Assembly (NCBI GenBank): GCA_022566355.1
Contig: JADFJB010000054.1
Span: 1 to 28,931 of the forward strand
Direction: 5' to 3'
DNA from: a candidate division KSB1 bacterium
Lineage (GTDB): Bacteria > Zhuqueibacterota > JdFR-76 > DREG01
Length of the DNA: 28,931 nucleotides
Under the pieces are notes generated by a model that was not told the origin of the DNA, ran no database searches, and saw only the letters and a list, made by a program, of their open reading frames with translations. The first letter of the stretch is position 1. Every line of letters starts with the position of its first letter. A program made the translations under genes and the position numbers. Of this stretch, positions 1,109 through 28,931 are shown in pieces.

Positions 1109-1768
1109 TCATAAATATTTATCTATGACTGATTTAAAAGAGGTATAATCCTTCTTCCCAATCATATATTCTCTTATTATCCCATTTTTATCAATTATAA
1201 CTGTTAATGGGCGAAAGGTTTCTAAGTCAATCCATTTTTCCGATGCAAAACTGCCAACAATCGTTGGGCTTTCTATCTTTTGGACAAATTTCATAATTCG
1301 TTCTCTATTTTCATCGCTCAGAGCGATTACCCATACCTTGTCGGGGTGGTCGGATTCAATCCTTTTTAGATGGGGAAACTCCTCTATACAAGGAGGACAA
1401 TATGTTCCCCAAAAGTTTAGTAAAATTACTTTTCCGGCGAAATCTGATATCTTATATGTGCTGTCTTTTCTCACATCTATAAAATCGAAATCATAAACTT
1501 TTTGTCCAATATTTTTATGCACTTTTGCAATGGAACTGACTATTGGCTTTAGAGGAAAATTGGTCATATAAATGAGAGCACCTAATACGACTGACAGGAT
1601 AAATAATGGTGTTCTTAAAGCCCACTTTTTCAGTCGCGATGTGAATGTTTTTTTAGATAGAAGCCAATCGGTGAAAATGACAATTGCAAACAAAGGAATC
1701 ATCAACCAATTTCCATATGAATTGAAGAATGATGCATTTTCACTAATAAAAAAAGCTAAATATTCCAT
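1109..1768 (-). CDS. TlpA-type membrane-anchored thioredoxin
   Basis: A 219-residue thiol-disulfide oxidoreductase. Two hydrophobic segments (about 20-36 and 52-70) lead into a periplasmic thioredoxin fold. The redox motif is WGTYCPPC, with Cys124 and Cys127, and the conserved cis-proline lies in 'FRPLTV' (Pro187). TlpA/ResA-family proteins reduce disulfides outside the inner membrane, classically to keep CXXCH cysteines of apocytochrome c reduced. That fits the c-type cytochrome encoded about 0.5 kb upstream on the same strand, but the 0.5 kb gap argues against one tight operon. The double membrane anchor is less usual than the single anchor of classic TlpA. The ATG at 1768 has an AGGAAA-like ribosome site. 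Substrate is inferred. Confidence 0.85.
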   Translation of the reverse strand: MEYLAFFISENASFFNSYGNWLMIPLFAIVIFTDWLLSKKTFTSRLKKWALRTPLFILSVVLGALIYMTNFPLKPIVSSIAKVHKNIGQKVYDFDFIDVRKDSTYKISDFAGKVILLNFWGTYCPPCIEEFPHLKRIESDHPDKVWVIALSDENRERIMKFVQKIESPTIVGSFASEKWIDLETFRPLTVIIDKNGIIREYMIGKKDYTSFKSVIDKYL

Positions 1769-1784
1769 CGTTCTAATTTCCTAG

Positions 1785-2279
1785 TTAATAATTAGATCAG
1801 TTTTATTAATGTGAGCATTTTTAGAAATGCTTGCCAACGGTTTCGTATATGTCTTGTAGTGGTTCTAGAACCGCAAACTTGCCAATTTGCAATGAAGTTT
1901 ATTTATATTAAATTGCTCGTATTTAATACTAATCCCGCTAAAAAGGATGTAAAAGAATAAACTTAGAAATAAATATATGACCAAAATTCTTCATAGCCAT
2001 ATTCTGTTTTTATGTAAATAACGAGGCCAGTGTTTGATTTTAGATTGGTTAACAAATCAATCTGAATAATGATTCCAAGAATACCTGAATAAAATGGAAT
2101 ACAAAAGCCTATGTATAACTATTTTGAGAAAATAACGTTTTATCCGCCCTTTATGGAAAAGTTTTGTCTGAGGCGGACATCCTGACAGCACACAATATCC
2201 TCAACAGAAATAATCCAATATTTTTAACATTTACTCCCTTTGATGACTGATAGATAGTTTCAGTGTTCATACTGATCAT
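1785..2279. other. Intergenic region, AT-rich, with a 12-bp palindrome
   Basis: No convincing gene is seen. It holds a perfect palindrome GGTTCTAGAACC (1861-1872), closely followed by AACTT/AAGTT arms around 'GCCAATTTGCAA' (about 1877-1899). TTGCCAAC (1831-1838) is the reverse complement of GTTGGCAA at 1058-1065, so short inverted copies bracket the thioredoxin gene. The rest is plain AT-rich sequence. The palindrome could be an operator for the thioredoxin gene that starts at 1768, but nothing proves it. Confidence 0.4.
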
Positions 2280-3044
2280 TTATTCTTTTTCCAGTGCCTC
2301 GAGTTTCTTTTTCACAAAAGGATTTGGCTGTAATTCCATTACTTTTTCATAGTTTTGCTTCGCCAATGCTTTATCACCTTTCGTCGCATAGAGCTCCGCT
2401 AAGGTAAAGTAACTCAGGAAAGATTTAGGATAATGATCGATATTCAATTTAAGTATTTCGATTGCTTCTTCACTTTGATTTTGCATTGCCAGTTGACTGG
2501 CAAGCCGGGTCAATACATTTTCCCGAAAATCGTAAACAAAACCGCCGTAATAACGTTCCCGCAAATCATGGTATTTCGTGATAGCAGCTTGTATACCTTC
2601 TTCAGAAACGATTGCCGCCAGCACCTCTTCAAGCGTTTGCGGCAGATTCTGACCATGGTGACAGGTTGTACAATTGACTTCAATGGTTTTCTCTCTACCC
2701 AATTTGGTCATATATTGGCTGTTAATTTCTTTGGTCATCTTGAGCATAAACCGGGCAATTTCTTTGGTCTCTTTTTCATCTGCAGGAAAATCGAATTCCG
2801 AAAGCGGCATCCCTTCTTCACCCACATGGCAATGCTGGCATCGCACACCCAGCGCCCTGGTAAAGCCTTTCATATTTTCGATAAGTTCATTGGTGGCTAT
2901 ATCTTTTGGAAACACCTGCAAGTTTTTCAATTCTTTTGGCGGGAACTGGGCATGAACATTAGCTGTGCCGAATAATAAGACCAATAAAATAAATGCCAGG
3001 ATTTTCCTCCATGTTTGTCTTTCGTTTATTTCAGACTTTGTCAT
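2280..3044 (-). CDS. Periplasmic di-haem c-type cytochrome (reaction-centre cytochrome-like) with TPR tail
   Basis: The ATG at 3044 is preferred over the further in-frame ATG at 3083, because AGGAG stands seven bases before it. The 254-residue product has a signal peptide ending near 'ANVHAQ'. Two CXXCH haem sites follow: CQHCH at 69-73 and CTTCH at 125-129. The spacing and 'LKNLQVFPKD' context match the photosynthetic-reaction-centre cytochrome c subunit-like family, common in non-photosynthetic FCB bacteria and acidobacteria. The last 70 or so residues look like TPR helices ('SFLSYFTLAELYATKGDKAL'), suggesting a protein contact. It likely carries electrons in the periplasm; the partner is unknown. 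The neighbouring TlpA-like and DoxX-like genes fit a redox context. Confidence 0.85.
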   Translation of the reverse strand: MTKSEINERQTWRKILAFILLVLLFGTANVHAQFPPKELKNLQVFPKDIATNELIENMKGFTRALGVRCQHCHVGEEGMPLSEFDFPADEKETKEIARFMLKMTKEINSQYMTKLGREKTIEVNCTTCHHGQNLPQTLEEVLAAIVSEEGIQAAITKYHDLRERYYGGFVYDFRENVLTRLASQLAMQNQSEEAIEILKLNIDHYPKSFLSYFTLAELYATKGDKALAKQNYEKVMELQPNPFVKKKLEALEKE

Positions 3045-3178
3045 GAAAAACTCCTTTCTTTTGTAATTTGGATACAAAATCAATTAGTGATTTGTAACAT
3101 TAAATATTGTGAAGTTAATTTCAATCGTTAGTGATAAGATTTCTTCTTAAAGTGGATATTGTTAGTATTCTTTCTCAG

Positions 3179-3562
3179 CTAAGCTGCTTTTTCTTTTCTG
3201 AAATAGATTAAAGTTGAAAGAAAAACAAGGAAAATTCCGGGACGAATAAGTTCTGGCGCTTGATTATTGAAAAGATGAGTCATGGCAGCGCCTAACATAA
3301 CTACGACTAAAAGCATAACAGCATATCTTGTGAATTTAGGAATTGACAATAGGATAGCTGCAATTGTTTCAACAGCGCCAATAACAAGATAGAAGTTGTT
3401 TGGATAGCCCCAATCAAGAAATTTTTGCTGCCATACTTCTCCTGCCAAAAATTTTCCACTTCCTGCGGCCAAAAATAACAAAGCAAGAAGAATTTGAAGG
3501 ACCCATAATAAGATCGTTTTTAATTGAACATTCCTTAATTTAATATTTAAAATAATTTTCAA
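3179..3562 (-). CDS. DoxX-like integral membrane protein
   Basis: A 127-residue protein with four hydrophobic helices and the DoxX signature 'LLALLFLAAGSGKFLAG' in the first, followed by 'VIGAVETIAAILL'. DoxX/DoxD relatives are small inner-membrane proteins linked to quinone or thiosulfate redox chemistry and oxidative stress, but most, including this one, have no assigned reaction. No strong ribosome site precedes the ATG at 3562. A perfect dyad lies about 32 bases upstream (3594-3609), and an AraC-type regulator is the next gene upstream on the same strand, so local regulation is plausible. Confidence 0.75.
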   Translation of the reverse strand: MKIILNIKLRNVQLKTILLWVLQILLALLFLAAGSGKFLAGEVWQQKFLDWGYPNNFYLVIGAVETIAAILLSIPKFTRYAVMLLVVVMLGAAMTHLFNNQAPELIRPGIFLVFLSTLIYFRKEKAA

Positions 3563-3593
3563 TAATATAGCAAAGTAATTTACCTCAATCGCT

Positions 3594-3609
3594 CCACTTT
3601 CTAAAGTGG
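3594..3609. promoter_or_regulatory. Perfect dyad upstream of the DoxX-like gene
   Basis: CCACTTT-CT-AAAGTGG has two 7-base arms and a 2-base spacer. It sits between the AraC-type regulator and the DoxX-like gene, about 32 bases before the latter's start, where an operator would be expected. It lacks a T-run and is short for a terminator. Role inferred. Confidence 0.35.
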
Positions 3610-3685
3610 CACTAAATTATTTTTTATGAAGGTTAAGTTTTATTTTGCTAATTGGTAGGACGATGAAATTGAAGGGTAAAGTAAT

Positions 3686-4822
3686 TTATTGATTAACCCT
3701 TTTGAATTGAGAAGGTGTCATCTGTGTATTTTTCTTAAATGCCCGGTTAAATGCGGTCTTACTATTAAAGCCAACGGAAAAAGCGATAGAAAGGATGGTT
3801 TCATTTGTTGCAGAATTACACAGCTTATGTTTTGCTTCATCCACTCGATAAGTATTAATAAAATCAAAAAAATTCATTTTGTATTGTTCATTTATCACTT
3901 GAGAAAGATTGTATGGCTGAATAGACAAGTTCTTAGCCAACTCATTCAATTTTAGTTCGCTATTGTGATAGGGTTTAGATCCGGCCATATAATCTGCAAG
4001 AAGGGTTTTGTATTTAATCCTGTTTTCAGTTGTCAAGTGAGAATTTTTATATTTGTCATCGGAAAAGTGTAGAAGAATATTTTCTGAAATTATCTCAGGA
4101 TTAATTAGCGTTTTGAAAGCAATGGCATGAATAAAAAAAGTTATAATAAGTGCAAAGACTAATCTTATCTGTTCACCATAAGAGTAATAAATACCCGAAA
4201 TTAAAAGTAAAAAATAGAGAAGCATCAGCGAAAGAAAAATTGTATATCCTTTTAGTAAATATTTAAACCACCGGTTACTGATTTCCTTCAAATTTGAACG
4301 GGTTTGTTTTAGTACTTGAGCCAGGTTCTTGATTGATTTCAGGATCATCATATTGTAAAAAAGCATGTGTAAAAATCGAACAAAAAACAGCAAGTAAATA
4401 GCAATTCGCATGTTTTTGGGATAATTGGATATGATAAATTCCATTTTAGCTGATACACTCTCTGCTAAAAAAGAAAGAGCAAAAAGTAATATTAACAACG
4501 AAGGGATAAAATGAACAAAATATTTTATCGGGGTAAAGTTTCTTTTAAATGAAACTTCTGCATAAAGATATAACAAAGGTCCATAAAGAAAAGGGATTGT
4601 TTGTAACCCGATATATAGCGGGAATGAAATCGACAGGTTGTAGTATTCTACTGATAAATACCTTACAACATTGAAGGAAAGTAGAAGTAACAAAAAAGCC
4701 AATATCCGATTTGCTCTTCTGTTGCCCAGTTTGTGAATGAATAAAACAAAGGCAAGGAAAAATCCCTGCAAGGCTCCAAAAGATAAAACGATAATCCACA
4801 TATTCTTTAAACCGATACTCAA
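3686..4822 (-). CDS. Membrane-embedded AraC-family transcriptional regulator
   Basis: A 378-residue protein. The N-terminal 235 or so residues hold seven or eight hydrophobic helices and no obvious ligand domain. The C-terminal 100 or so residues form an AraC-type double helix-turn-helix ('LNELAKNLSIQPYNLSQVINEQ', then 'ETILSIAFSVGFNSKTAFNRAF' and 'TPSQFK'). This 7TM-AraC architecture is frequent in Bacteroidota and relatives and is thought to sense a membrane or envelope signal while the DNA-binding domain stays in the cytoplasm. The listed start is TTG. An ATG seven codons in (4801) is an equally credible start, since neither has a strong ribosome site. The dyad at 3594-3609, just past its 3' end, is a possible target. 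Confidence 0.85.
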   Translation of the reverse strand: MSIGLKNMWIIVLSFGALQGFFLAFVLFIHKLGNRRANRILAFLLLLLSFNVVRYLSVEYYNLSISFPLYIGLQTIPFLYGPLLYLYAEVSFKRNFTPIKYFVHFIPSLLILLFALSFLAESVSAKMEFIISNYPKNMRIAIYLLFFVRFLHMLFYNMMILKSIKNLAQVLKQTRSNLKEISNRWFKYLLKGYTIFLSLMLLYFLLLISGIYYSYGEQIRLVFALIITFFIHAIAFKTLINPEIISENILLHFSDDKYKNSHLTTENRIKYKTLLADYMAGSKPYHNSELKLNELAKNLSIQPYNLSQVINEQYKMNFFDFINTYRVDEAKHKLCNSATNETILSIAFSVGFNSKTAFNRAFKKNTQMTPSQFKRVNQ

Positions 4823-8388: not shown

Positions 8389-8658
8389 ATGAAATACATT
8401 GATTGGAATGATGAAAAAAATGAAGAACTTAAAAAGGAAAGAGGGGTATCTTTCGAGATTGTAGCGAGTTTAATTGAAAGTCAAAATGTCTTGGATGTAA
8501 TTAATCATCCCAATCATAAGAAATATCCGAATCAAAGAATATTTATTGTCGAGATTGACGATTATGTTTATTTAGTTCCGTTTGTGGAAGAAGAAGATAA
8601 AATTTTTCTAAAAACAATAATCCCAAATCGTAAAGCAACAAATAAATTCATAAGGTAA
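8389..8658 (+). CDS. brnT: BrnT-family toxin
   Basis: An 89-residue protein matching the BrnT ribonuclease-toxin pattern: an N-terminal 'DWNDEKNEELKKERGVSFE', then the beta-strand core 'NQRIFIVEIDDYVYLVPFV' and a basic C-terminal 'TIIPNRKATNKF'. BrnT toxins have a RelE-like fold and cleave RNA. The next gene begins four bases after the stop and encodes a CopG-type antitoxin, the usual toxin-first order of brnTA. The module is AT-rich and sits directly beside a second module, typical of mobile or defensive accessory DNA. Family confidence is good; activity is untested. Confidence 0.75.
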   Translation: MKYIDWNDEKNEELKKERGVSFEIVASLIESQNVLDVINHPNHKKYPNQRIFIVEIDDYVYLVPFVEEEDKIFLKTIIPNRKATNKFIR

Positions 8659-8662
8659 TACA

Positions 8663-8932
8663 ATGCCAAAATTTGATGAGTATGAAAAAGAAATAATTAA
8701 GTCATATGAAAATGACGAATGGCAATCTGTAGAAGATCTGGAAACGGAAAAAGTAAAGTATGCGAAATATGCCAGAAATACATTTACTAAGAGTAAAAGA
8801 ATTAATATTCGGATATCCGAACGAGATTTAATAGGACTAAAAATAAAATCGTTGGAAGAAGGGATTCCCTATCAAACTCTTGTATCAAGTATACTTCATA
8901 AATACATATCTGGCCGCCTTGTAGATCGGTAA
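8663..8932 (+). CDS. CopG-type antitoxin paired with BrnT
   Basis: An 89-residue partner of the preceding toxin. 'MPKFDEYEKEIIKSYENDEW' and the ribbon-helix-helix core 'SKRINIRISERDLIGLKIKSLEEGIPYQTL' followed by 'ILHKYISGRL' match the CopG_antitoxin group. The N-terminal half would wrap the toxin, while the ribbon-helix-helix part binds the module's own promoter. Spacing of four bases from the toxin gene implies co-transcription. Confidence 0.8.
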   Translation: MPKFDEYEKEIIKSYENDEWQSVEDLETEKVKYAKYARNTFTKSKRINIRISERDLIGLKIKSLEEGIPYQTLVSSILHKYISGRLVDR

Positions 8933-8998: not shown

Positions 8999-9037
8999 TT
9001 GCTTCAAAAAAATCTTAAAGTATGATAATTGATCATA
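8999..9037 (+). promoter_or_regulatory. Promoter with overlapping operator of the RHH/MazF module
   Basis: TTGCTT (8999-9004) and TATGAT (9021-9026) stand 16 bases apart. The -10-like box is also the left arm of a perfect inverted repeat, TATGAT-AATTG-ATCATA (9021-9037). A ribbon-helix-helix antitoxin bound there would cover the -10 region, the standard autoregulation of such modules. A TTGACA just upstream (8993-8998) is an alternative but over-spaced -35. Confidence 0.5.
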
Positions 9038-9054
9038 CCTTCAGGAGATTTTCG

Positions 9055-9297
9055 ATGTCATCTGCAAAAGTAGCAATTACAATTGATAATCAACTTCTTA
9101 AAAAGCTTGATCTCCTTGTAAAGGAAAAAGTTTACCCCAATAGAAGTAACATTATTCAAGAAGCAGTAAAAGAAAAGTTACTCCGCATAGATAAAAGTCG
9201 GTTAGCCAAAGAATGTGCAAAACTTGATCCTCAATTGGAGCAGTCAATGGCTGATGAGGGTTTAAACCAAGAGCTTGAATCATGGCCAGAATATTAA
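9055..9297 (+). CDS. Ribbon-helix-helix antitoxin (MazE/PemI-like role)
   Basis: An 80-residue protein if begun at the ATG at 9055, chosen because AGGAG lies seven bases ahead. The in-frame ATG at 9022 lies inside the operator repeat. The N-terminal '[19 protein letters not shown]' and '[18 protein letters not shown]' form a CopG/MetJ ribbon-helix-helix domain. The acidic C-terminal '[23 protein letters not shown]' is the toxin-neutralising tail. It overlaps the toxin gene by 16 bases, so the two are co-translated. It should neutralise the MazF toxin and repress their shared promoter. Confidence 0.85.
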
Positions 9298-9620
9298 GAG
9301 GTGAGGTCTATTGGGCAGACTTACATTCAACGCGTGGGCATGAGCAAGCAGGTTTTAGACCCGTTCTAATAATTAGCAACAATATTTTTAATGAGAAATC
9401 CGGAACTGTAATTGCATTAGCTTTGACCAGTCAACCACAAAAAGCGGGATTCCCACTAACATTCGAATTATCAGGGTCAAAATTACCCAAACGGTCCTGG
9501 GTGAAAATAAGCCAAATAAGAACCTTATCAACTTTAAGAATCAAAAATAAGTTAGCTACTGTACCACCGGAAGAATTGGAAGACATTATTGAAGGATTTA
9601 ATGAAATTATTAGCAGTTAA
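9282..9620 (+). CDS. mazF: MazF/PemK-family mRNA interferase toxin
   Basis: A 112-residue MazF-type endoribonuclease. The family marks are 'RGEVYWADL', '[13 protein letters not shown]' with the conserved Arg and Pro-Val, '[11 protein letters not shown]' and '[12 protein letters not shown]'. It cleaves mRNA at short sequence motifs when its antitoxin is degraded. The start lies inside the antitoxin gene in another frame. No truncation or frameshift is visible, so the pair seems functional. Confidence 0.9.
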
Positions 9621-21767: not shown

Positions 21768-22055
21768 TTATTGAATATAGCTATCTAGTGAAATTGTATA
21801 TTGTGGAAACGCTTTTAATACTTTTTTATCCAAAGTAATTAATGGAATGTCAAGATCTTTTGCTAATGCCACAAACTCATAGTCATATGCAGAACATTCT
21901 GATAACTCAGCTAATTTCAAAACATCTAATGAAGTTACATCATATTCATTTTCATTCATCAGGGTTGCTGCTTCATTCATAATTTTTATGGCTTTATCGA
22001 GTTCTAAGCTTTGATTTCGAATATAAAATGCTAAAACATTTCTAAATTCCGTTTC
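21768..22055 (-). pseudogene. VapC-type PIN-domain toxin, C-terminal half only
   Basis: The frame reads 'ETEFRNVLAFYIRNQSLELD', then 'LSECSAYDYEFVALAKDLDI' and 'PLITLDKKVLKAFP', the second half of a VapC PIN ribonuclease with its conserved Ser-Ala-Tyr-Asp and Thr-x-Asp metal-site region. The N-terminal strand with the first catalytic Asp ('VDTN') is missing. Reading back past about 22055 enters the truncated tldE gene, whose TTG at 22076 merely gives a formal start. No VapB antitoxin is present. The toxin should be inactive, left by a deletion or formed by an assembly join. Confidence 0.75.
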
Positions 22056-23047
22056 CCGGGGACGGAGTGGCTTCAACGCCTTTATCTTTTGCCCAAAATC
22101 GAGAATAGAATAGATTCTTTACAACGCCATTTTCTATCCAGTAGGTTTTCTTTCTCGGCCGCCCATCCTGGGTCCATGTCGATGTCGGCACATCCGGATG
22201 AGTCGGGTCCGAATACATGGTTATGCGTTCATCAACTATTTTCTCTCCGAGTTTGGTGCCGCCGCCCTTTTTAGCCATAAAACTCCGGCCTTCATCCGCT
22301 TGTCTTGCATTGAAGCTGAAAATCATATTTTGCAGTAAGCCTATGGAAGCGGCAGGTTCGAGGACCACAGTGTATTTTCCCGGTTCAATTGCTTTTGCAT
22401 CTCTGGACATATCCGCTTTTTCGATCGCAATTTGGGATGCCCTGCCGGTATCGAGTTTATTCACATCATTATAATCTCTTGTGGCATATCCGGATCCGGT
22501 ACCATCTTTGGTTCTAACAGTAATCGAAAAATCAATTCCGGTGGATGCATGATAGGCAAATAGACCAGCAGTGTTGATCATTGCCTGGAAATTCGCACTG
22601 TCCTGCAAAAACCCGGCCGCAATCAAATCTTTTTCCCTGCATGGCTTGATGCTGTTCAGCGCTGCCTGGGCGCGAAATTCAGGATTTATATTTGCGGTGG
22701 ATTCCATAATAAGCTTTGGATTTTAAGTATTGCTGGGGACCCAATACATCGACAAATTCAGGGTTTTCCGGCGCGAGTTTGGCAAGTTCCTCCGACCTTC
22801 TAACTACCTTCTCAACAGAGGCGTCATCGAACTCATTAATCGTTGCTGTTCCCATTTTTTTGCCATAATTGGATTGAACGATTAAGGTAAGATCGCTCTC
22901 TCTCCCGCTGGTTGTCACTGTATTACGGGCATATCGAATATTTCCGCCAACATTACCGTTCACGTTAGACTCAAAGCCGTCGGCTTTCGAGAAGCTCATG
23001 GCTTTTTCAAGAATTGCACGTGCATCGTCTTTTGATAATATTGCCAT
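22056..23047 (-). pseudogene. tldE: TldE/PmbA-like metalloprotease subunit, frameshifted and 3'-truncated
   Basis: The partner of TldD, starting 37 bases after tldD on the same strand. The first frame gives 'MAILSKDDARAILEKAMSFS', 'YARNTVTTSGRESDLTLIV', and after about residue 110 must shift one base at the GG of 22704-22705 to continue 'ESTANINPEFRAQAALNSI'. The second frame keeps typical TldE sequence to 'YSRFWAKDKGVEATPSPG' and then stops. Normal TldE/PmbA continues for roughly another 90 residues. TldE lacks the catalytic motif of TldD but is required for the heterodimer's protease activity. Two separate lesions make this copy non-functional unless both are sequence errors. Confidence 0.8.
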
Positions 23048-23084: not shown

Positions 23085-24710
23085 TTATACTTTTCGTTCT
23101 GTGTTAATTACATTTACTCCGTTGAACCTGGATGTCGAGCAGCCATGTGAAACAGCGCTGATCTGGCCGGGTTGTCCCTTGCCGTCAAAAAACGAACCAC
23201 CGAACCGATAATCACGCTCATCGCAAATTTGGACGCAGGAATTCCAGAATTCCTGGGTATTGGATTGATAAGCGACGTCGCGAAGGATGCCGGTAATTTC
23301 ACCGTTTTTAATCTCATAAAACAACTGACCGCCAAATTGGAAATTATAGCGCTGCTGGTCAATTGAATAAGAACCCCGGCCCATAATATAGATGCCCTTT
23401 TCAACATCTTTGATCATTTCATCGACCGAAAGTTTTTCCTTTCCTGCAGCTAAAGAAACATTGGGCATGCGTTGAAACTGGATTGAACTCCAGCTATCCG
23501 CATAACAGCAGCCGTGGGATTCCTTTTCTCCCAAAATATGTACCTGGTCGCGGATGGCCTGGTAGTTCACCAAAATGCCATCTTTTACCAAATCCCAGCG
23601 CTTGCACTTGACGCCTTCATCATCGTAACCAACTGCTGCGAGGGAGCCTTTTTGGGTTTTATCTGCAAAAAAATTAACGATTTTGCTGCCATAGTTAAAC
23701 GATTTTGATTGCCATTTATCCAGTGTGGCAAAACTGGTTCCGGCAAAATTGGCTTCATAACCAAGCACACGATCCAATTCCAGGGGATGTCCGACCGATT
23801 CGTGAATGGTAAGGAAAAGGTGGGTCGGATCCAGGACCAGGTCATACTTTCCAGCCTCAACCGATTTAGCTTTGAATTTTTCCACAACCTGCTTTGCGGC
23901 TAGCACAGCATCTTCCTGCATATCATAGTGAAATCCATATCTAGTCGTAACGCCGTGAATTTTGGCGGATTCGCGGATATCCATGTATTCAAAGCCCATA
24001 CCCATAGGTGAACTTAGAGAGTTCCGGGTTTCGAACTTACCGGTTGAAGAATCTATACCGGTAACTGTAAATGTCGGCCACATCCTATGGATGTCCTGGT
24101 CGATGTAAGAACCGTCTGTTGAGGCAAAGTATTTTTGCTCGTTTACCATAAACAGGCGAGAATTGACGAACTTGGCGCCGTTATCCAGTGCAGCTGCATT
24201 GACGGCCATAAGCAAGTCTACTTTTTCGGAAATGGGTATATCGAATGCATTTTTCTCAATGGGTGTTTTCCAGGTAACTTCCCCATGTCCGTTATCAGAA
24301 GCTAATTGAACCGGTTCTTCCTGAATTTTAGAGTTTGCTTTTGCTATCGCGACTGCCTGATTAGTAATTTCTGCAATGTCATCTTTTGTCACATTACTTG
24401 TAGAGGCAAAACCCCAGGTTCCGTTTGCGATTACACGAACTCCGGCGCCGAATGATTCGGTATTACGGATATTTTGGACTTTGTTTTCCCTGGTAATGAC
24501 GAATTGGTTTAAATATCTCCCGATACGAATATCGACATAGGTTGCCCCGTTTTTTGTTCCCGTATTGAGGGCAATATCCGCCAGGGCTTTTTTGTCACTG
24601 GTTGGAATCGATGTGATGGCGCCGTTAAATGTTTTGCTGTTTAAATGAACGGGAATGAATAATGCGCCAACTCCGGCACCGCCAATTATTAAGAATTTTC
24701 TTCTTCTCAT
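23085..24710 (-). CDS. tldD: TldD-like metalloprotease subunit with Tat-type leader
   Basis: A 541-residue TldD-family protein (U62/PmbA-TldD). The HExxxH zinc motif is 'IHESVGHPLELDR' (His303, Glu304, His308), and a further conserved metal-site Cys is in 'SHGCSTSRFNG' (about Cys524). TldD with TldE degrades unfolded peptides and trims modified peptides such as microcin precursors. Unlike cytoplasmic E. coli TldD, it begins 'MRRRKFLIIGGAGVGALFIP', a twin-arginine-type signal, predicting export or membrane attachment. That explains the extra length over the usual 480 or so residues. Its stop is 37 bases before tldE. A strong hairpin precedes the gene. No peptide substrate gene is evident nearby. 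Confidence 0.9.
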   Translation of the reverse strand: MRRRKFLIIGGAGVGALFIPVHLNSKTFNGAITSIPTSDKKALADIALNTGTKNGATYVDIRIGRYLNQFVITRENKVQNIRNTESFGAGVRVIANGTWGFASTSNVTKDDIAEITNQAVAIAKANSKIQEEPVQLASDNGHGEVTWKTPIEKNAFDIPISEKVDLLMAVNAAALDNGAKFVNSRLFMVNEQKYFASTDGSYIDQDIHRMWPTFTVTGIDSSTGKFETRNSLSSPMGMGFEYMDIRESAKIHGVTTRYGFHYDMQEDAVLAAKQVVEKFKAKSVEAGKYDLVLDPTHLFLTIHESVGHPLELDRVLGYEANFAGTSFATLDKWQSKSFNYGSKIVNFFADKTQKGSLAAVGYDDEGVKCKRWDLVKDGILVNYQAIRDQVHILGEKESHGCCYADSWSSIQFQRMPNVSLAAGKEKLSVDEMIKDVEKGIYIMGRGSYSIDQQRYNFQFGGQLFYEIKNGEITGILRDVAYQSNTQEFWNSCVQICDERDYRFGGSFFDGKGQPGQISAVSHGCSTSRFNGVNVINTERKV

Positions 24711-25507: not shown

Positions 25508-27067
25508 CTAAAACCGTTGCGCTGTTTGCGACTGAACTGTTGGTAACGCTTTCCGCGGAATTTTATCATCCCGCATAGCCGCATGATAAACAAAAGACGC
25601 CATGATAACCGCATTTTGCATCAGGTCACTGTTGATTGTGTAATCGTAAGCATCCATATTTGTGTGATGAGTACGAGTGCTATACTCAATCCGATCCTGG
25701 ATGAATTGAAATCCCGGCAGACCCACTGCATCAAATGCTAAGTGGTCTGTACCACCGGTAGTACGAATTGTCAGCGTTTTTGCGCCAAGATCGTGAAATG
25801 GTTTCAACCATTGTTCGAAAATCGGGCGAACAGCATCGTTGCCTTGCAGATAGACACCACGGAATTTTCCGGTACCGTTGTCCATATTAAAATAAACCGA
25901 GAAATTTTTATGGTCTTTTTTCAGATCCATGGTTCTTCTATCTGCAAAGTGATTTTTCACATATGCCCGGGAACCGAGCAGTCCTTGTTCTTCACCACTC
26001 CATAAAGCGATACGAATGGTTCGGCGTGGTTTGATGCCAAGTTCTTGTAAAATTCGGACAGCTTCCATAGCAACTGCGCAACCTGAAGCATTATCAGTCG
26101 CGCCAGTGGATGAATGCCATGAATCAAGATGTCCACCCAACATGACCAATTCTTTTTTCAATTTCTTATCGGTACCCGGGATTTCACCAACAACATTGTA
26201 TGCCAGTGAATCCTCCTTATGGAATGTATTTTGAATATCGATTTCCATTGAAACAGGCATATCCATATCCAAAAGCCTGGCGATCCGGTTGTACTGTTCG
26301 ACTGCTACTACCAGGGAAGGAAGTGTAGGTTGAGCCGTTAAGCTTTGGGAGCCTCCTCGACTAACAAAAACAGTACCATGCTCTCCACGGCTGGGTTCTA
26401 CCAGAACTGCCACACCTTCATCCTTAAAAAATTTGGTCGTTTTATTTCGCAAAGCTCTCCTTTGCCTAAACTCAGCTCTTCGACCTGCGAAGCGTGATCT
26501 GGCGCCGGGTATGGGGGCTTGCATTAATTCAGTTAAATCTTCTTCAGATCGTCTTGTAGCATCGGCTTCAAAATGGTTATTTGCATCCCGGGCTGCCTGG
26601 ACAAGAACAATTTTACCATTTAATGTGCCTTTATACTGATCCAGATCTTCCTCGGAGTTAATTGTGAGAAGAACCGGAGAACCCTTAATGACACCATTAG
26701 TCCCAGGTGTCCATGCTTTTGGATAGGCGATCATAGGCATATATTGTGGCGCTGTCATAGCTACATAAACTCTCTCATTTGTCCATCCATGACCAAACGT
26801 GCCCCAGGCTTCAATATTTGTATTTGTTAACCCCCATTCGTTTAACTTTTCCACAATCCATTCGTTGGCTGATGCTAAACCAGGCGATCCGGTCAAACGT
26901 GGACCATGGACATCCGTGAGATAACTCAACAACTCCATAACCTGGGAATGATTAAATCCCTCGGCTTTAATTTCCGATATTTTTTGCCAGTGTATCGGTT
27001 CCTGGGCGTTTACTATGCAAACCAGCATCAGTAAACTGATCAAAATAAATGGTGCTCGTTTTTTCAT
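25508..27067 (-). CDS. Secreted M28-family zinc aminopeptidase
   Basis: A 519-residue protein with a signal peptide ending near 'LVCIVNAQ'. The M28 fold has its metal and catalytic residues: 'GGHLDSWH' (His313, Asp315), 'TGATDNASG' (Asp325), 'WSGEEQGLLGS' (Glu359-Glu360), 'FNMDNGTG' (Asp396) and 'TRTHHTNMD' (His467/468). A PA-like insert lies at about 100-285, with an Arg-rich stretch at about 188-208. It should release amino acids from peptides outside the cytoplasm, like other secreted M28 enzymes of FCB bacteria. TAAGGAGA before the ATG is a strong ribosome site. A terminator ends the gene, so it is probably monocistronic. The foreign archaeal-type DNA begins just beyond its start. Confidence 0.93.
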   Translation of the reverse strand: MKKRAPFILISLLMLVCIVNAQEPIHWQKISEIKAEGFNHSQVMELLSYLTDVHGPRLTGSPGLASANEWIVEKLNEWGLTNTNIEAWGTFGHGWTNERVYVAMTAPQYMPMIAYPKAWTPGTNGVIKGSPVLLTINSEEDLDQYKGTLNGKIVLVQAARDANNHFEADATRRSEEDLTELMQAPIPGARSRFAGRRAEFRQRRALRNKTTKFFKDEGVAVLVEPSRGEHGTVFVSRGGSQSLTAQPTLPSLVVAVEQYNRIARLLDMDMPVSMEIDIQNTFHKEDSLAYNVVGEIPGTDKKLKKELVMLGGHLDSWHSSTGATDNASGCAVAMEAVRILQELGIKPRRTIRIALWSGEEQGLLGSRAYVKNHFADRRTMDLKKDHKNFSVYFNMDNGTGKFRGVYLQGNDAVRPIFEQWLKPFHDLGAKTLTIRTTGGTDHLAFDAVGLPGFQFIQDRIEYSTRTHHTNMDAYDYTINSDLMQNAVIMASFVYHAAMRDDKIPRKALPTVQSQTAQRF

Positions 27068-27086
27068 ACATTTCTCCTTATTATGG

Positions 27087-27656
27087 ATGAAAGATTACTT
27101 TGAATTGTTTTTCCAGGGTACTTGCAACAAAAAAGAGGGGATTAAAATAAGAAGAAAATCCAAAAAAGCGCAATTTGCATCACAAATCTTTATCTTTATT
27201 TTAGCAATAGTTATTGCATCATTGATATTTTTGTATGGTTATAAGGCCATTACCAATTTAACCGTAAGGACTGAAGAAATATCCCTTATTAGATTCGAAA
27301 CTCAACTACAGACTCAAATCAGGAGTATTGCTACTGATTTTGGAAGTGTAAAAAAGCTGGAGTTGTATGTTCCTTCAAATCATCAGCAAGTGTGTTTTGT
27401 GGATTTCAAGAAATCTCCTGAGCTGTTTGGATTATGTCAGCTAAATCATCCAGATTATAATCCTATTGTTTGTGATGCCTGGACAGATCAGACAGAAAAT
27501 GTATTTTTGATTCCACCTTCTCCAAAATCCATTAAAGTTCCTTCTATTGATGTAGATGATGGTTATTTGTGTTTAAGAACTGTCAATGGAAGAATTGTGA
27601 TTAGATTAGAAGGTAAAGGAAAATCAGCACTTATAAGTAAATGGGATGCAGGATGA
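27087..27656 (+). CDS. Archaeal pilin-like protein with class III leader (DPANN-type hypothetical)
   Basis: The conserved part begins at about 27,141: a basic stretch 'IKIRRKSKKAQF', then the helix 'IFIFILAIVIASLIFLYGY', then a soluble domain with paired Cys ('VCFVDF', 'FGLCQL', 'PIVCDAW', 'YLCLRTVNG'). 'KKAQF' plus a helix is the archaeal prepilin-peptidase pattern. The series of motifs, down to 'NGRIVIRLEGKGKSALIS', matches proteins I recall from Woesearchaeota/Pacearchaeota. The ATG at 27087 adds about 20 residues that look like translated junction DNA, so the native start is probably lost or is a rare codon near 27,141. It overlaps the next gene by ATGA. Role inferred: secreted or pilus-like surface structure. 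Confidence 0.65.
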   Translation: MKDYFELFFQGTCNKKEGIKIRRKSKKAQFASQIFIFILAIVIASLIFLYGYKAITNLTVRTEEISLIRFETQLQTQIRSIATDFGSVKKLELYVPSNHQQVCFVDFKKSPELFGLCQLNHPDYNPIVCDAWTDQTENVFLIPPSPKSIKVPSIDVDDGYLCLRTVNGRIVIRLEGKGKSALISKWDAG

Positions 27657-28693
27657 GGAAAGCTCAACTTTCCGTACAATTCAATTGGATTTTTGTTACG
27701 ATTGCAGGAGCAATCATTCTCCTTTTTTTTGTTGGGTTAGTCTTTAAACAAAAGGAGGTTTCTGATACCAATCTGATTGCATCTGTTTCAGAAGAATTTA
27801 AAGCAATATTAACCGGGGCCGGATTGAGTACAGGAACGACAAATGTAATCCAGATCCCTAAAATTGAGATAAAGTTTGCCTGTGAAGATGGAGATGCCTG
27901 GTTTGGGGTAGATTGGGAGCGGACGGGAATAAGGACTCCCTTGCCCTTTGAGGTGATTTTTGCTCCAGACATTGTTAAGGGGAGGGAAATTATAACGTGG
28001 GCATTAGATATTTCTGCTCCTTTTAAGATTCTTAATTTGCTGCATGTTACAAGTCCTGAAATAAGATATATCTTTGTTGGGAATAATAAATTTGCTGACG
28101 AAGTATTTTCAAAAGTTCCTAAGGAGATTCTTAAGGAGAGAATGATCAGTGCTGATGATATGGATAGTGTTATCGATAAGAAACATGATAAGGTGAAATT
28201 TATTTTCTTTTCAACTGCCCCCGAATACATTTCTTTACCTTCTTTCTTTAAAGATGTAGACGTTTCTGCTGTTCAAATCTTTTCGGAAAGAATTGTATTT
28301 TATAAGAAGCAAGGATTGAGTTTAATTGCTGAAGGAGATGTGTTTTATCTGGATGAAAGATTAGTCTATGGGGCCATTTTCTCAGAAGATTTGGATTATT
28401 TTAAATGCAATCTTCAGAAGATGTATAAAAGACTTAGTTTTGTTGTTGACATTTATGCTCAAAGAGAAAGAGCTTTGATCGATTATTATGCGTTGAATCC
28501 AATTGATCCTAAAGCAAGATGCAAGGATTTTTATTGGATCAGTGATGAAAAGACCTATTTGGATCTGTATAAAGAACGTGCAGATGCATGTTCTTTGGAT
28601 ATAGAGAAATGTTCACTTTTGAAATCAGATATTGCAGATGTGAAAAGCAATAATAAGGTATTAAAGCAAAAATCATGTCCTTTATTATATTAA
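27653..28693 (+). CDS. Archaeal pilin-like protein with long exported domain (DPANN-type hypothetical)
   Basis: A 346-residue protein starting at the ATG of an ATGA overlap. The in-frame ATG 12 bases earlier is less likely. The leader 'MRKAQLSVQFNW' and the helix 'IFVTIAGAIILLFFVGLVF' form a type IV pilin-like class III signal. The remainder (about 35-346) is exported: 'STGTTNVIQIPKIEIKFACE' and 'ITWALDISAPFKILNLLHVT' resemble a recurrent DPANN family without assigned function. The last third is Cys-rich ('CKDFYW', 'CSLDIEKCSL'). Arg is mostly AGA/AGG, unlike the CGN-containing bacterial genes to the left. A minor pilin or pilus assembly role is inferred from leader and context only. Confidence 0.7.
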   Translation: MRKAQLSVQFNWIFVTIAGAIILLFFVGLVFKQKEVSDTNLIASVSEEFKAILTGAGLSTGTTNVIQIPKIEIKFACEDGDAWFGVDWERTGIRTPLPFEVIFAPDIVKGREIITWALDISAPFKILNLLHVTSPEIRYIFVGNNKFADEVFSKVPKEILKERMISADDMDSVIDKKHDKVKFIFFSTAPEYISLPSFFKDVDVSAVQIFSERIVFYKKQGLSLIAEGDVFYLDERLVYGAIFSEDLDYFKCNLQKMYKRLSFVVDIYAQRERALIDYYALNPIDPKARCKDFYWISDEKTYLDLYKERADACSLDIEKCSLLKSDIADVKSNNKVLKQKSCPLLY

Positions 28694-28694
28694 A

Positions 28695-28931
28695 ATGAAA
28701 AAAGCACAAATAAAGATGTTTGAGACCATAGCAATACTTTTTGTATTTTTTATGCTAGTTATTTTTGGATTTATCTTTTATGCTAAACTTCAGAAGATCA
28801 CTTTTACAGAAGAAAGAGGAGAGGTTTCTATTCTGAAAGCAATTCAGGTTGCGGAAAGAACTTCATTTTTGCCTGAGATGCAATGCAGCTTTGATAATGT
28901 TCCTGATGATGATTGCATTGATATTGAAAAG
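28695..28931 (+). CDS. Archaeal pilin-like protein, 5' part only (DPANN-type hypothetical)
   Basis: The ATG follows the previous stop by one base, and the gene runs off the window after 79 codons. 'MKKAQIKMFETIAILFVFFM' is again a class III leader plus helix. The early soluble part has 'VAERTSFLPEMQCSFDNV', resembling a DPANN family that in my memory accompanies the two preceding genes. Three such genes in a row, nearly without spacing, argue for a genuine archaeal operon rather than chance. Fold and function of the missing part cannot be seen. Confidence 0.7.
   Translation, partial: MKKAQIKMFETIAILFVFFMLVIFGFIFYAKLQKITFTEERGEVSILKAIQVAERTSFLPEMQCSFDNVPDDDCIDIEK

Follow-up and report, generated by a model that had tools for sequence, protein, structure and literature searches.

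The contig analysed here, whose complete 28,931 bp constitute the window, joins two segments of different taxonomic origin, the left one being bacterial and the right one, the last ~1.8 kb from about position 27,124 to the contig end at 28,931, Woesearchaeotal. An archaeal origin of this terminal stretch is shown by homology and conserved gene order as well as by codon use and composition. The contig belongs to a bacterial genome assembly of 213 contigs and 4.62 Mb (98.5% complete, 0.21% estimated contamination) that is probably a metagenome bin. In line with what the first-pass annotation had considered the simplest explanation, the contig is very probably a chimera produced as an assembly or library artefact, and the archaeal segment is almost certainly not a real feature of the bacterium.

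The boundary and its bacterial flank

To locate the switch, two fifth-order Markov models were compared, one trained on contigs of the host and the other on loci of Woesearchaeota. The cumulative log-likelihood ratio of these models is lowest at 27,124, and the composition changes abruptly at this one point (Table 1). The segment to its right scores +0.0216 per base, which is higher than all 366 held-out host windows of 1.8 kb (mean -0.034, sd 0.015, maximum -0.0025; z ~3.8) and lies at the 57th percentile of left-out archaeal windows. The value is likewise not reached by any of 1,779 additional windows taken from the 57 readable other contigs of the bin (maximum 0.011). Codon use follows the same division and bears out the richness in AGA and AGG arginine codons previously attributed to the right-hand genes: of the arginine codons, these two make up 91% to the right of the join (21 of 23) and 35% in seven genes to its left (76 of 218; Fisher p=1.3e-7). 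Both the composition and the codon use of the archaeal segment are without amelioration. Two ribosome sites, one on either side, set a bracket of 27,083-27,134 for the join, in agreement with the first-pass annotation, which had described a passage from bacterial to DPANN-type sequence within about 50 bases. Inside this bracket, no terminator pattern stands above the shuffled background.

The last clearly bacterial element before the join is the ribosome site TAAGGAGA of a gene for a secreted M28 aminopeptidase, so that the left flank is indeed the start region of such a gene, as had been proposed. The nearest homologue of this protein is 58% identical and comes from a bacterial genome of the same family, and the bin has M28 paralogues on further contigs. 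Because the sequence upstream of the gene has no sigma-70-type promoter pattern that exceeds the shuffled background (the promoter type of the host may differ), its own promoter may perhaps have been left behind at the join. The M28 homologue in genome G002 has other neighbours, namely a helicase upstream and a receptor-like protein downstream, and the true upstream neighbour of the M28 gene is therefore not predictable from host synteny.

Two further observations concern the bacterial part of the contig. A second TldD/PmbA-like gene (22042-23047) adjoins a TldD-like gene (23085-24710) and is broken into a pair of overlapping frames (22679-23047 and 22042-22707), in a way that suggests a frameshift or a sequence error. 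In addition, the small gene pairs at 8389-8932 and 9022-9620 are presumably toxin-antitoxin modules of the BrnT/BrnA and MazF types.

Table 1. Features on both sides of the join, in window coordinates.
Feature	Position	Strand	Basis or remark
Secreted M28 aminopeptidase, host gene, 519 aa	25508..27067	-	Pfam Peptidase_M28 PF04389, E=1.3e-35
M28 ribosome-binding site TAAGGAGA	~27,075-27,082	-	read directly from sequence
Join region, best estimate of change point 27,124	27083..27134		cumulative Markov log-likelihood ratio minimum
g1 ribosome-binding site GAGGGG	27135..27140	+	sequence; arrangement as AAAGAGG-AACC-ATG in Woesearchaeota homologue L012
g1, Woesearchaeotal membrane-anchored protein, ~169 aa	27147..27656	+	homology to archaeal g1
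g2, single-helix-anchored protein of no known family, 346 aa	27653..28693	+	archaeal homologues
g3, first 79 codons of a ~160-aa protein	28695..28931	+	homology; cut by contig end

The archaeal genes and their operon

To the right of the join, g1, g2 and the beginning of g3 follow one another in the order and on the strand in which they occur in Woesearchaeota loci. In DPANN genomes, these genes belong to an operon that runs from a giant multi-domain surface protein (~1,000-2,000 aa) through g1, g2, g3 and g4 and, in several genomes, on to small proteins that start with KxQGxSxNxIIxAAxAL and have a pilin-like look. The resemblance to Woesearchaeota families reported in the first-pass annotation thus extends to gene order, the homologues of all three genes being archaeal and arranged in the same way. 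The g1 protein shares 27-46% identity with archaeal g1 proteins encoded directly upstream of g2, and the g3 fragment 37-55% with archaeal g3 proteins encoded directly downstream of it. Common to the window and the Woesearchaeota operon (e.g., JACPMR010000015.1 and JACPMW010000029.1) are order, orientation, near-overlapping spacing and an N-terminal K-A-Q followed by a hydrophobic helix, a start found in all of g1-g4. However, the Woesearchaeota operon comprises g1-g4 and flanking genes, whereas the window carries just g1, g2 and half of g3. The gene for the giant surface protein is not upstream of g1 in the window; its place is taken by the opposite-strand M28 gene, as a cut here would lead one to expect. 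In the relatives this giant gene ends anywhere from 4 bases inside g1 to 75 bases before it, which places the join at the end of this gene or very close to it.

The start of g1 required a closer definition than its open reading frame provides. The 213-aa frame that opens at 27,015 is a mechanical extension, since homology to archaeal g1 begins only at about residue 44 (~27,144), and the alignment places the beginning of the homologous sequence at ~27,144-27,150. Homologues of g1 open with M, a short basic stretch, KAQ and then the hydrophobic helix. At the corresponding start position (27147-27149), 6 nt after GAGGGG, the window has ATA instead of ATG, GTG or TTG. The gene itself is, as the alignment shows, essentially complete relative to its homologues. 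The earlier claim that its N-terminus is junction DNA translated as a result of a cut inside an operon has to be amended, because the cut lies upstream of the GAGGGG site. The ATA may serve as a rare start codon, or it may reflect a point difference or an error in the consensus. Judging from position, it is probably not due to the join, because the change point is located 23 bases further left and the join to the left of 27,135.

The distribution of g2 is distinctly archaeal. A search of 84,980 species genomes yielded 12 confirmed loci, 12 of 12 archaeal (by record title ten Woesearchaeota, one Nanoarchaeota and one archaeon), with 24-44% identity in the best segment, and of 378 genomes sampled from the archaeal class to which one of these loci belongs, 228 contain a g2 match. 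Over its full length, g2 shares no more than 39% identity with any relative found, and the source archaeon therefore lacks a close genome among those searched; in the g2 tree, the window protein has no resolved position among Woesearchaeota. Bacterial relatives of the right-hand genes, which the first-pass annotation had named as evidence against a foreign origin, did not appear for g2: there was no match among 38 genomes of the host's phylum, and a profile search of 82 phylum genomes (the host and 81 others) gave no true homologue outside the window. The lone weak match within the phylum (genome G010, E=4e-5) is confined to 67 residues of membrane helix in an unrelated protein. That the right-hand genes come from a phage, plasmid or virus was also considered and rejected, since searches of phages, plasmids and IMG/VR gave no match.

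No Pfam family was found for g2, nor in a scan of g1, g2, g3 and g4 representatives. In the good AlphaFold model of g2 (pLDDT 81.8, pTM 0.78), one long helix at the N-terminus is followed by a mixed beta-rich domain and by a helical part at the C-terminus. No PDB structure matched this fold convincingly in Foldseek, and VIA-align gave Z values below 6 only. The likeliest role of the operon would be an envelope-anchored, possibly pilus-like assembly, because g1-g4 share the K-A-Q and helix start and a giant surface protein is encoded next to them. This widespread DPANN operon without a Pfam family (seen at L004, L012, L080, L085 and other loci) is thus a candidate surface structure that deserves separate study.

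Origin of the join

In the most probable reading, the true end of the bacterial contig lies just upstream of the M28 gene and was wrongly extended at ~27,124 with 1.8 kb from a Woesearchaeota genome in the same sample, either via the assembly graph or via a chimeric library molecule. We infer that the join arose outside the cell, either in silico or in vitro. Internally, the sequence left by a true transfer would look the same as that of a chimera, the two being distinguished by read support. The chimeric reading is favoured on indirect evidence, because the foreign part is terminal, one-sided and unameliorated, because it represents a partial operon that has no integration marks and is absent from relatives, and because the rest of the operon is not found in the bin. 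In fact, the contig ends inside g3 and bacterial DNA is not resumed. Neither the upstream giant protein nor the rest of g3 was found elsewhere in the bin, in which the g3 fragment is the only copy; the only bin match to the missing parts, on contig C28, was a 42-residue repeat match. Of 60 other contigs taken for the scan, three are masked as N, and none of the 57 readable ones contains a comparable archaeal-type stretch. Archaeal 16S had no match in the bin, a negative that is uninformative because the model also matches bacteria and detected no SSU at all here. The ORF list and a repeat search around the join revealed no integrase, IS element, mobile element or long repeat. The contig thus resembles chimeric metagenome contigs (GUNC, PMC8201837) in carrying two distant lineages, a single sharp boundary and a foreign part at the contig end. 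Misassembly is a named source of chimeric contigs in metagenome bins, although rated relatively rare (PMC8201837), and assembly problems have been reported at contig ends (PMC8172020). In our judgement, chimeric contigs are still commoner than recent transfers from DPANN to bacteria of which just one edge is seen.

Two observations count against a chimera. Firstly, no shared sequence that would be long enough for a graph error is visible at the join. The longest exact match between the join region and the archaeal part is a direct repeat of 14 bases (TGGATGAAAGATTA, 27,084-27,097 = 28,350-28,363), equalled in 2 of 400 dinucleotide shuffles. This repeat is suggestive but is given little weight, because its position in g2 does not fit a simple template switch; no sequence similar to the contig end region occurs elsewhere in the bin. 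Secondly, both flanking ribosome sites are intact, which a random cut would seldom leave. For these reasons a slim chance is left to a genuine recent inter-domain transfer, in which the bacterium would have integrated at least 1.8 kb of Woesearchaeota DNA directly upstream of the M28 gene. A sharp join that spares the ribosome sites of both M28 and g1 would fit such an event, as would the lack of in-frame stops in the archaeal genes and a bin that is otherwise clean, in its low estimated contamination as in the scan for other archaeal-type stretches. Archaeal genes on a bacterial contig are also what horizontal gene transfer between DPANN and bacteria produces. However, this contig differs from such cases in having no second boundary, no amelioration and no integration mark, and in holding a partial operon. 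Transfer would have to be recognized from one edge alone, with neither mobile element nor repeats found at the boundary, and would have delivered an operon fragment without known use alone. The insertion is absent from two same-family genomes, the nearest relatives compared, and from the rest of the phylum. Were it nevertheless a true transfer, it would be a very young archaeon-to-bacterium case involving DPANN envelope genes, caught before amelioration. The idea that the host lineage itself is the source of the three genes, and that they merely look archaeal, is scarcely credible, as nothing was found in favour of it once the G010 match was explained as a membrane-helix stretch, and the lack of homologues in 38 and then 81 other phylum genomes, the 228 g2-positive archaeal genomes, the conserved archaeal operon and the composition switch at 27,124 all argue against it.

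A chimeric contig of this kind carries a practical warning. Even a near-complete bin with 0.21% estimated contamination can have DNA of two domains joined at the end of a contig, and automated surveys of inter-domain transfer would count the end of this contig as archaeal genes in a bacterium. As a separate observation, L114 (G000:C189) comes closest to an archaeal composition of all other host contigs scanned, at positions 1401-4000 (GC ~0.31). Its neighbours are, we presume, a radical SAM-like gene and an HPr-kinase-like gene, which probably makes the region a locus for peptide modification and not archaeal DNA.
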